Of a stretch of 64,000 bases of DNA, positions 11,549 through 14,938 are shown piece by piece; positions within the stretch are counted from its first letter, which is position 1, and each line of letters starts with the position of its first letter. The DNA lies in NCBI RefSeq assembly GCF_005233835.1, contig NZ_SZQA01000004.1, positions 62,001 to 126,000 on the forward strand. Direction: 5' to 3'. The position numbers and the translations under genes are program-made. The DNA comes from Herbidospora galbida. GTDB lineage: Bacteria > Actinomycetota > Actinomycetes > Streptosporangiales > Streptosporangiaceae. Under the pieces are notes generated by a model that saw only the letters and a program-made list of their open reading frames with translations, searched no databases and was not told the origin of the DNA.

Positions 11549-12127
11549 TCAGTTCTGGGAGGGGTCGTCGGGATAGCTGGCCACGAAGGCCAGTTCGCCC
11601 GGCTGTCTCCTGAGGACCGTTCGCCACAGTGACGACGGGTGCGGGTGGAAGGTGTCGCCCGGTTCGGAGTCGACGATGTACCAGGCGCCCTGGGCGACCT
11701 CGCCCGCCAGCTGGCCCTGCGTCCAGCCGGCGTAGCCGGCGAAGATCCGCATCTGGGATATCTCGCCCGCCAGGATCTCGGGGGGCGCGTCGAGGTCGAC
11801 GGTGCCGAGGCGGGAGACGCCCCGGCGGCCGGTGTGGAGGCGGCGCCAGCCGAGGGGTTCGGCGCCGCTCATGACGACGGCGAGGGCCAGGGCGCTGTCG
11901 GTCTGTACGGGCCCGCCCTCGAACAGGACCGACGGGCCGGTCACCAAAGGGTCCCAGGTGGGGAGTACCGACGTGACGCTGATGTCGCTGGGCCTGTTGA
12001 TCACCACACCGAGCGTGCCGCCGTCTTCGTCGTGCTCCAGGATGAGGACGACACTACGCCGGAAGTTCGGGTCGTCGAGCAGTGGCGTCGCCACCAGCAG
12101 CCCACCGACGTAGATCGACTCCGCCAT
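11549..12127 (-). CDS. yqgE: YqgE/AlgH family protein
   Basis: A 192-residue UPF0301 (YqgE/AlgH) protein. Hallmarks are GGLLVATPLLDDPNFRRSV at the N-terminus, LGVVINRPSDI, and later RIFAGYAGWTQGQLAGEV. The structure is known in the family but the biochemical role is not settled. The start is uncertain: ATG 12127 (MAESIYVGG) fits family length, but GGAGGG sits only 2 nt before it; ATG 12136 is the alternative. It converges on the TetR gene. Confidence 0.87.
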   Translation of the reverse strand: MAESIYVGGLLVATPLLDDPNFRRSVVLILEHDEDGGTLGVVINRPSDISVTSVLPTWDPLVTGPSVLFEGGPVQTDSALALAVVMSGAEPLGWRRLHTGRRGVSRLGTVDLDAPPEILAGEISQMRIFAGYAGWTQGQLAGEVAQGAWYIVDSEPGDTFHPHPSSLWRTVLRRQPGELAFVASYPDDPSQN

Positions 12128-12249
12128 ACCCTCCATGATGCGACAGGAAGGCCGATTCGCGCACGTCACCCCACCCCGTTACTCTGAGTTATGAAATTGG
12201 AGGACATGGGAACTCTCCGTACAAGAAAGATCTTGGCCGAGGGGGACCC

Positions 12250-13371
12250 GTGGGACAGAGCACACCGGCACGCAGGGCGTTCGCGCTGCTGGCCGCACCG
12301 ATCGGGGCGGCGTTGCTGCTGCCCGGCCAAGCGGCCGCGGCCCCGCCTCCGCTCCAGGTGAAGTACGACAAGATCGACTGCGCCTCCGGCGAGGTCCTGG
12401 TCAGCATCACCAACCCCGGTCCCGACGCCCACGAGTTCACCCTCTACCGCGACGACGACGTCATCGCCCGCGGCCGCTCGGCGGCCAACGAGACCGTCGA
12501 GGAGTCGGTACGGATCACCCGGAGCGCCCGCCTCAAGGTCCACGGCGACGGCGAACAGGTCTCCGAACGCTGGATCGACGCCTGCCTGCCGGCCACCACC
12601 CGTACGGCCGGCCGGCAGAGGGAGGACCAGCAGGGTTCCGAAGAGGTCCACCACGGCCTGTTCGACTTCGGCAAGTGGGGCCAGGACCGCGAAGACCGTC
12701 AAAGCGAGGGCGGCGACCGCCAGCAGGGTCTGTTCGACTCCGGGAAATGGGGCCAGGACCGCGAAGACCGCCAAAGTGACGGCGGCGACCGCCAGCAGGG
12801 TCTCTTCGATTTCAGCAAATGGGGCCAGGACCACCACGACCACCAGGGCGACCGGGGCCACGGCCTGTTCGACTTCGACAAATGGGGTCAAGGCCGCGAA
12901 GACCACCAGGGCGACCGCCACCACGGCCTCTTCGACTTCGGCAAATGGGGCCAGGATCACCACGACCACCACGACCACGGCGGCTGGTGGGACCACCACG
13001 GCGACCGGGGCCACGGCGGCTGGTGGAACCGGGAAGAGCACAACTGGTGGAACCGCGACCACCATCACCACCACGACAACTGGTGGAACCGCGACGACCA
13101 CCACCGCCACGGCGACCACCACGGCGGCTGGTGGGACCGCGAAGACGACCACGGCCCCGACCACGGCGGCTGGGGCGAACGCGAGGCCGAGAACATCGGC
13201 TGGTGGAACCGCGACCGCGTACACGACGAGGACGTGCTCCCCTACACCGGCCCGCCCGCCGACCTGTGGGGCAAGGTCGCCACGGCGGGCGGCCTGGTCA
13301 TCATGGGCGGCGTCTTCTGGTGGCTGGCCCGTATCTGGCCCCGCCGAACCTTCCCGGTGACCCCTCGCTAG
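12250..13371 (+). CDS. Sortase-anchored (LPYTG) His/Trp/Asp-rich repeat protein
   Basis: A 373-residue surface protein starting at GTG 12250. A signal peptide ends near AQAAAA (residue 31). Residues about 33-115 form a small domain (LQVKYDKIDCASGEVLVSITNPG, an Ig-like pattern with two cysteines). Five repeats with core GLFDF-KWGQ follow, starting at nucleotides 12655, 12727, 12799, 12862 and 12925, spaced 24, 24, 21 and 21 residues. Then comes a segment of alternating WWNRD/GGWWD and His-Asp runs. LPYTG at residues 330-334, a hydrophobic helix and the charged tail ARIWPRR form a sortase signal. No sortase is encoded here. I do not recognise the repeat; metal binding by the His/Asp runs is inference. 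Confidence 0.8.
   Translation: MGQSTPARRAFALLAAPIGAALLLPGQAAAAPPPLQVKYDKIDCASGEVLVSITNPGPDAHEFTLYRDDDVIARGRSAANETVEESVRITRSARLKVHGDGEQVSERWIDACLPATTRTAGRQREDQQGSEEVHHGLFDFGKWGQDREDRQSEGGDRQQGLFDSGKWGQDREDRQSDGGDRQQGLFDFSKWGQDHHDHQGDRGHGLFDFDKWGQGREDHQGDRHHGLFDFGKWGQDHHDHHDHGGWWDHHGDRGHGGWWNREEHNWWNRDHHHHHDNWWNRDDHHRHGDHHGGWWDREDDHGPDHGGWGEREAENIGWWNRDRVHDEDVLPYTGPPADLWGKVATAGGLVIMGGVFWWLARIWPRRTFPVTPR
12655..12990 (+). repeat. Five in-frame GLFDF-KWGQ coding repeats
   Basis: Copies begin at 12655, 12727, 12799, 12862 and 12925. The first two spacings are 72 bp and the last two 63 bp. The sequence also repeats at the DNA level, so recombination between copies could change the copy number. Confidence 0.85.
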
Positions 13372-13458: not shown

Positions 13459-14868
13459 CTACGCCTCGGTGAAGCCGCGGGCCTTGCCGCCCGCCGATTC
13501 CCGGACCGCCGCCGCGACCGCGCCCGCCACGTCGGGGTGGAACACGCTCGGCACGATGTAGTTGGGGCCGAGTTCCTCAGGTGACACCACCGCCGCCAGG
13601 GCGCGGGCGGCGGCCAGGAGCATCTCCTGGGTGACCCCGTCGGCCTGGGCGTCGAGGAGGCCGCGGAAGACGCCGGGGAAGGCCAGCACATTGTTGATCT
13701 GGTTGGGGTAGTCGGAGCGGCCGGTCGCCACCACGGCCGCGTGTTCGCGCGCGTCGTCGGGCGACACCTCGGGCTCGGGGTTCGCGAGGGCGAAGACGAC
13801 CGCGTCGGAGTTCATCGTCGCGATGTCGTCGCCGGTCAGGATGCCGGGGGCGGAGACGCCGATGAACACGTCGGCGCCCTTGACGGCGCCGCGCAGGTCT
13901 TCGCTGTAGCCCTCGGCGTTGGTGTGCTCGGCGATCCAGCGCAGCGACTCGTCGAGGTCGTCGCGGCCCTGGTGGACGGCGCCCAGGTAGTCGCACACGA
14001 TGACGTTCCGCGCCCCGGCGGCGAGCAGCAGGCGCAGCACGGCGGTGCCGGCCGCGCCGGCGCCGGCGAGGGTGATGCGGACGTCGGGCAGTTCCTTCTT
14101 CACCACCCGCAGCGCGTTGGTGAGCGCGGCCAGCACGACGATCGCGGTGCCGTGCTGGTCGTCGTGGAAGACGGGGATGTCGACGAGTTCGCGCAGCCGG
14201 CGCTCGATCTCGAAACAGCGGGGCGCCGAGATGTCTTCGAGGTTGATGCCGCCGAACCCGGGCGAGATGGCCCGGACGATCTCGACGATCTGGTCGGCGT
14301 CCTGCGTGTCGAGGCAGATGGGCCACGCGTCGATGCCGGCGAACCGTTTGAACAGGGCGGCCTTGCCCTCCATCACGGGGAGGGCTGCGGCGGGGCCGAT
14401 GTTGCCGAGGCCCAGGACGGCGGAGCCGTCGGTCACGACCGCGACCGAGTTCCGCTTGATCGTCAGGCGGCGGGCGTCTTCGGGGTTGCGGGCGATCGCC
14501 ATGGAGACCCGCGCGACGCCCGGCGTGTAGGCCATCGAGAGTTCGTCGCGGTTGCGCAGCGGCACCTTCGACTTCATCTCGATCTTGCCGCCGAGGTGCA
14601 TCAGGAAGGTCCGGTCGGAGACCTTGTGGATCACCACGTCTTCGACCTCGCCCAGGCGGTCGACGATCGCCTGGGCGTGGTCGGTGTCACGGGCGGCGCA
14701 GGTCACGTCGATGCGCAGCTTCTCATGTCCGGCGTTGGTCACGTCGAGGGCGGTGACGACGCCTCCGGCGTTCTCGACCGCATGGGTGAGCTGGCTCACC
14801 GCCTTGCCCCCTGCGGGCACTTCCAGACGGACGGTGATCGAATAGGACACGCTGGGCACGGTAGCCAC
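13459..14868 (-). CDS. NAD-dependent malic enzyme with N-terminal ACT domain
   Basis: A 469-residue enzyme decarboxylating malate to pyruvate. Residues about 1-85 form an ACT domain (SYSITVRLEVPAGGKAVSQL), which usually binds an amino-acid effector. The malic core follows: MAYTPGVARV, then TDGSAVLGLGNIGP, EDISAPRCFEIERRL with metal-binding Glu/Asp, FHDDQHGTAIVV, and the dinucleotide motif GAGAAGTAVLRLL. I start at GTG 14868 because AAGGAG lies 9 bp upstream; an upstream in-frame start would add 11 residues. The gene is monocistronic, and regulation by ACT ligand binding is inferred from the family. Confidence 0.92.
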   Translation of the reverse strand: MATVPSVSYSITVRLEVPAGGKAVSQLTHAVENAGGVVTALDVTNAGHEKLRIDVTCAARDTDHAQAIVDRLGEVEDVVIHKVSDRTFLMHLGGKIEMKSKVPLRNRDELSMAYTPGVARVSMAIARNPEDARRLTIKRNSVAVVTDGSAVLGLGNIGPAAALPVMEGKAALFKRFAGIDAWPICLDTQDADQIVEIVRAISPGFGGINLEDISAPRCFEIERRLRELVDIPVFHDDQHGTAIVVLAALTNALRVVKKELPDVRITLAGAGAAGTAVLRLLLAAGARNVIVCDYLGAVHQGRDDLDESLRWIAEHTNAEGYSEDLRGAVKGADVFIGVSAPGILTGDDIATMNSDAVVFALANPEPEVSPDDAREHAAVVATGRSDYPNQINNVLAFPGVFRGLLDAQADGVTQEMLLAAARALAAVVSPEELGPNYIVPSVFHPDVAGAVAAAVRESAGGKARGFTEA

Positions 14869-14938
14869 GTCAATCCGCTCCTTTGCGCATTGGGTGTGCA
14901 TCCAATCGTGCCACCATCCAGCAGGTGATATGCCCGGT

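Follow-up and report, generated by a model that had tools for sequence, protein, structure and literature searches.

A genus-specific aromatic repeat stalk on a putative sortase-anchored surface protein of Herbidospora

Sortase substrates are a known kind of surface protein in actinomycetes. SspA, CwpA, and CwpB of Actinoplanes missouriensis are sortase-anchored through an LPVTG signal and are predicted to be disordered, SspA over its whole length and CwpA and CwpB in part; they affect sporangium strength and, as proposed, surface hydrophobicity (PMC13293333; PMC13251363). The long chaplins (PF03777) are also sortase-anchored surface proteins of filamentous actinomycetes. A more distant parallel is offered by the histidine-rich proteins of the squid beak, which are disordered, are built of modular repeats containing histidine and aromatic residues, and demix by a route whose first step is histidine deprotonation (PMC6884462).

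We analyzed a 64,000-nucleotide stretch of the Herbidospora galbida genome (hereafter the window), which encodes a protein that can be likened to each of these by description. With SspA, CwpA, and CwpB it would have in common the sortase-anchored type, predicted disorder, and a location at the actinomycete surface. However, CwpA and CwpB are reported to be hydrophobic, and the portions of these papers available to us mention neither repeats nor a His/Trp block for any of the three (PMC13293333; PMC13251363). The resemblance to the squid proteins is that of an analogous working principle only, as these are animal proteins for which tyrosine is the aromatic residue named (PMC6884462). A chaplin identity was rejected, the window protein having no PF03777 match in Pfam at E values up to 10. 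Among the papers listed in searches on Herbidospora, on sortase-anchored proteins of actinomycetes and Streptosporangiaceae, and on the GLFDF motif, we found no description of this protein, and the available part of a report on Herbidospora genomes held nothing bearing on it (PMC4599437).

The gene (12250..13371, forward strand, like all features of the protein given below) encodes 373 amino acids from a GTG start to a TAG stop. This anatomy is secure. A signal peptide (residues 1–31, 12250..12342), recognized by eye and aligned in eight genomes, precedes a head domain with two cysteines, Cys44 and Cys112 (residues 33–112, 12346..12585), which is defined by a family profile. It is followed by a 217-residue stalk rich in G, D, H, R, and W (residues 113–329, 12586..13236). 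Five copies of a ten-residue motif lie in this stalk: GLFDFGKWGQ (12655..12684), GLFDSGKWGQ (12727..12756), GLFDFSKWGQ (12799..12828), GLFDFDKWGQ (12862..12891), and again GLFDFGKWGQ (12925..12954), Ser replacing the second Phe of the motif in repeat 2. They start at residues 136, 160, 184, 205, and 226, that is, at the spacings of 24, 24, 21, and 21 residues given in a previous sequence-only reading. Next come a block of WWNRD/GGWWD motifs and His/Asp runs (residues 236–326, 12955..13227), aligned in seven species, the LPYTG sortase motif (residues 330–334, 13237..13251), identified from sequence and alignment, and a membrane segment (residues 343–360) with a tail containing Arg 361, 365, 366, and 373 (13252..13368). 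The signal peptide, two-Cys domain, His/Trp/Asp block, and sortase signal announced by the earlier reading for 12250..13371 are thus all present. Residues 119–326 consist of 17.8% G, 16.8% D, 14.9% H, 9.6% R, and 8.7% W. In 2,000 shuffles of the stalk, GLFD occurred 0.003 times on average and at most once, versus five times in the real sequence, and WW, present six times, at most five times.

This is a real gene, since six further Herbidospora genomes carry intact orthologues of it. A 352-aa ORF overlaps it on the opposite strand (12166–13224); the forward frame is favored over this antisense ORF because of its codon-position GC content and because dN/dS is below 1 in that frame. Third-position GC is 0.84–0.94 in the four gene parts tested, a normal value for actinomycete coding DNA. 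We deduced the precise start from the signal peptide and the preceding GAGGGGGA stretch, since the frame stays open 5′ of the GTG to give a 410-aa open frame.

The succession of LPYTG, hydrophobic segment, and basic tail is that of LPXTG substrates. LP.TGPP is present in 12 of 12 aligned sequences, an invariance that is partly built in, since 11 of them were found by scanning with patterns including that stretch. No curated sorting-signal profile of NCBIfam or Pfam matched at E values up to 10. The genome search for a sortase, called for by the earlier reading, gave seven genes above the Pfam cut-off. According to the best NCBIfam match of the matched stretch of each gene, one is of class E and six are of class F, one of these six falling below the NCBIfam cut-off. 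The sequence features and the sortases of the genome thus agree with the surface anchoring that had been claimed, and attachment itself stays at the level of a prediction. In the class E sortase, a GHRTTY stretch aligns with GHRRTY of solved relatives, and on our reading its tyrosine is probably the class E tyrosine discussed in PMC5148588. Class E sortase is described as specific for LAXTG, but SrtE1 of Streptomyces coelicolor reportedly tolerates either Ala or Pro at P3 (PMC5148588). SrtE of Actinoplanes seems to use LPVTG, and mutants of that organism lacking its four class F genes showed no phenotype (PMC13251363). For these reasons, class E appears the likelier anchoring sortase over class F.

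Head domain and sorting signal belong to a family without a name, of which our searches gave no account and which we call here the Streptosporangiaceae head-domain LPxTG family. A head profile built from eight sequences (A3; seven Herbidospora and one Nonomuraea) matched 112 of 341 genomes and 13 of 68 genera of the Streptosporangiaceae, many of the matches being weak; E values for genomes outside the profile ranged from 4.7e-43 downwards in significance. A few, such as the two of genus g58, whose open frames are some 900 aa long, may be matches to the signal peptide only. The gene is present in each of the seven Herbidospora genomes searched. Beyond the family, a broader head profile (A5) gave weak matches (E 3e-6 to 9e-4) in 5 of 197 genomes of the class, besides the genome of the window and one Nonomuraea. 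A whole-protein profile searched at E values up to 10 matched only the present gene in its own genome. The window protein has no Pfam or NCBIfam family at E values up to 10. Among nine relatives, Pfam searches at E values up to 1 gave sub-threshold matches only, several of them Ig-like, and none whatever in three; four of the nine had a sub-threshold match to PF05506 (E 0.02–0.13). No convincing match came from sequence searches of the PDB (best E 0.059 and 0.012). That the head may be an Ig-like β-sandwich is a guess, since all these Pfam and PDB matches are sub-threshold.

The gene lies between a divergent gene for a YqgE/AlgH family protein (11549..12139, reverse strand; NF001270 above cut-off; ORF listed from GTG 12169) and a convergent malic enzyme gene (13459..14901, reverse strand; PF00390 and PF03949 above cut-off, NCBIfam NF009501 below its cut-off). 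Using these two proteins of the window as queries, we examined 48 loci, namely L009, L014, and the 46 loci read for linker length. Besides the window, yqgE is near the gene in all 48, which represent 43 distinct places. Malic enzyme is on the other side in the window, in the six other Herbidospora loci, in locus L009 of genome G015, and, G015 left aside, in 11 of the 13 other distinct places that belong to neither Herbidospora nor Nonomuraea; in L064 and L074 it is not within the stretch examined. In the Nonomuraea loci read it is not adjacent, lying outside the stretch examined except in L025, where it is about 2.2 kb off. As yqgE is found in every locus and malic enzyme in part of them, yqgE is the conserved neighbor. 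In Nonomuraea L022 and L025, a TetR-family regulator, not malic enzyme, adjoins the orthologue (L022:4164–4775 and L025:4161–4784, both on the reverse strand). In G015, only the membrane tail of an orthologue is recognizable between yqgE and malic enzyme (L009:1504–1629, forward strand), with no head match. Two tandem head-domain or LPxTG genes are seemingly present at the locus in genomes G260, G269, G276, and G308 and in loci L064, L067, and L074. Upstream of the gene, a block formed by GTTA and, 15 bases on, TGGGnAC (12188–12216) is kept in the eight aligned loci (three Herbidospora, three Nonomuraea, Sphaerisporangium, and NEAU-GS5) and is a candidate promoter or leader element.

The proteins of Nonomuraea, Sphaerisporangium, strain NEAU-GS5, and further relatives within the family have, as in Herbidospora, a two-Cys head, an LP[YF]TG-type signal, and yqgE nearby, but their linker is shorter and without the GLFDFx[KR]W pattern. 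We read 46 loci: 11 from a pattern scan, the 23 non-Herbidospora loci among 30 head-profile loci, and 12 picked from weaker matches. Four of them duplicate the place of another (L040 = L023, L041 = L022, L054 = L025, and L068 = L024), L063 and L071 were left out of the linker count because the sorting-signal pattern searched for does not occur in them, and second matches within the loci L051, L064, L067, and L074 (linkers of 0, 18, 29, and 78 residues) were not counted. The last Cys is at most 28 residues from LPxTG in 32 of the 34 distinct non-Herbidospora places, the two exceptions being L021 (56 residues) and L064 (137 residues, Ala/Pro/Ser-rich). In Nonomuraea (genus g4) the linker is 5–10 residues long in all 23 places read and is typically PWGHRRHG; in Sphaerisporangium, 56 residues follow the last Cys. 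Conversely, the stalk of the seven Herbidospora species is 185–256 aa long. Of the 341 family genomes, 7 have the repeat DNA pattern, and these are all Herbidospora; every one of its 25 sites lies within the present gene, and the GLFDFx[KR]W pattern is absent from the non-Herbidospora genera among these 341 genomes. A stalk that is genus-specific and constrained is what sets the Herbidospora protein apart. In the NEAU-GS5 protein, 28 residues follow the last Cys and about 47 follow the one aligned with Cys112, with WWKRSGGLFGHG among them; to see in this the origin of such a stalk is a guess. Since relatives combine this head and this signal with hardly any stalk, the basic role of the family does not need one, a point against the reading favored below. 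With the same head, signal, and yqgE neighbor but a linker of 5–10 or of 185–256 residues, Nonomuraea and Herbidospora provide a clean natural contrast that could reveal the contribution of a probably disordered stalk rich in aromatic residues and His.

The reading that we favor, to which we give a probability of roughly 45%, is that this stalk is a disordered chain of stickers and spacers on a sortase-anchored protein, forming a cohesive surface layer that responds to pH or metal. The wall-anchored stalk would hold the small, possibly Ig-like head out from the peptidoglycan. Its GLFDFxKWGQ motifs and WW pairs would act as aromatic stickers, and the His/Asp/Gly/Arg spacers would set solubility and charge. 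Many stalks tethered to the wall might associate with each other, or with glycans of the wall or matrix, into a cohesive layer, whose cohesion could be altered by pH or by metal ions held by histidines. In proposing that pH or metal tunes a cohesive chain at the surface, we draw on the demixing of the squid beak proteins and on the disordered wall proteins of Actinoplanes; such a layer may have a role on hyphae or spores.

A serious rival, since relatives use unrelated linkers, is that the stalk is a mere flexible spacer lifting the head through the wall, its length mattering and its sequence not, and that the repeats arose by slippage in a gene of high GC content. Low-complexity stretches unrelated to the Herbidospora stalk do occur in the family, either after the head, as in the two long-linker exceptions, or before it, as Pro/Thr/Ser-rich stretches in L065, L067, L069, L070, L072, L073, and L074. 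Repeat number also varies, as the regular spacing of the repeats had suggested to the sequence-only reading, with 2, 3, 5, 5, 5, 5, and 6 copies in the seven Herbidospora species. Spacer sequences are more alike within species than between them (0.55 vs 0.26, a difference reached by none of 2,000 label permutations), whereas motif DNA is no more alike at third positions within species (0.789) than between species for repeats of the same index (0.808). The repeat arrays therefore seem to have been turned over with their motifs retained.

It is this retention that speaks against the spacer hypothesis. Under four aligner settings, pN/pS is 0.23–0.26 in motif columns and 0.74–0.84 in spacer columns, although uncertain alignment of the spacers between species may inflate their pN, and no column permutation out of 2,000 reached the difference under any of the settings. 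In a gap-free alignment of 30 full motif units, pN/pS is 0.22. G1, F3, and D4 are invariant in these units, having been part of the pattern that picked them, while W8 is kept in 29 and F5 in 25. Jukes–Cantor dN/dS is 0.19 for the motifs and 0.78 for the spacers, compared with 0.37 for the WW/His block (residues 247–326), 0.45 for the head, 0.34 for the sorting signal, and 0.73 for the signal peptide. The pattern of conserved aromatic stickers between variable spacers is thus found for the array; repeat 1 by itself does not show it (pN/pS 0.99 on ten codons), as synonymous change is also low there, very little change of either kind having occurred. Furthermore, Trp and Phe are unusual in linkers, and the number of histidines in the stalk stays at 23–32 in all seven species whatever the repeat number. 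We therefore consider the plain spacer possible but on balance unlikely. The earlier reading would have been refuted by functionally characterized homologues whose blocks are low-complexity linkers without conserved position; this situation was encountered only in part, as no homologue of known function was found, the repeat pattern occurs in no other genus of the family, and within Herbidospora the motifs are conserved but the spacers are not.

Composition bears on the favored reading and on a second alternative. The stalk lies on the disordered side of the charge–hydropathy plot, a crude test, in all seven species, and even spacing of its aromatic residues falls below the 0.05 level in only four of them. 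Its pI is 5.4–5.9, and its computed net charge goes from −19.3 to −25.3 at pH 7.5 to +4.7 to +10.7 at pH 5 in the seven species, a reversal that any composition with so much His and acid would give. Acidic at neutral pH, the stalk turns basic below about pH 5.5, so that a shift of cohesion with pH would be expected. Against the favored reading, the histidines of the WW block are no better kept than its other non-Trp residues (pN/pS 0.50 vs 0.44, or 0.56 vs 0.43 with one aligner setting). The sequence-only reading had suggested metal binding, and the His/Asp stalk could be a store or scavenger of Zn, Ni, or Cu at the wall. The 31 histidines among 217 stalk residues in the window protein, with HHDHH and HHHHH runs, and the 23–32 histidines in all seven species agree with this. 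However, the stalk has no Cys, the two direct neighbors YqgE and malic enzyme are not metal genes, and the GLFDFxKWGQ motifs are left unexplained. Among stalk columns represented in four or more other species, His columns are less conserved (0.72) than those of Phe (0.98) and Trp (0.93), Gln/Glu/Asn/Arg columns reaching 0.59–0.68. We regard a dedicated metal store as improbable. Binding of an aromatic or glycan ligand by the aromatic motifs, as in an adhesin to a plant polymer or chitin, would fit the regularly spaced F/W repeats and the repeat-number variation common in adhesins, but is more doubtful still, ten-residue motifs being short for carbohydrate-binding modules and the window protein having no domain match in the Pfam and NCBIfam searches.

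If the stalk self-associates, it would constitute a covalently tethered bacterial surface material, tunable by repeat number. By analogy, one could go further and imagine that a single genus turned a short wall-anchor linker into a covalently tethered condensate layer of stickers and spacers, switchable by pH or metal and similar in principle to the His-rich condensing proteins of animals; we see this as a long shot.

Several other proteins came to light during these searches. In genome G007 of the same family, a match was rejected as an orthologue, being a chaplin that aligned over a His-rich stretch and the sorting signal (L010:469–1779, forward strand). It has four PF03777 stretches and a stretch rich in His, Asp, Glu, and Cys before LPFTG, and is thus another sortase substrate of an actinomycete with a His-rich stalk. 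The genome of the window (G000) encodes on contig C23 a single 651-aa ORF with eight PF03777 matches in one chain and, by eye, no LPxTG (L095:211–2166, forward strand). A second protein of this genome, of 142 aa, has LPFTG but no stalk like that of the window protein (L098:1392–1820, reverse strand). Finally, the window carries a gene for a secreted M43-type metallopeptidase (PF05572; 7783–8799, reverse strand) that has a HRHGHDHGHDHD tract at its N-terminus, after the signal peptide.
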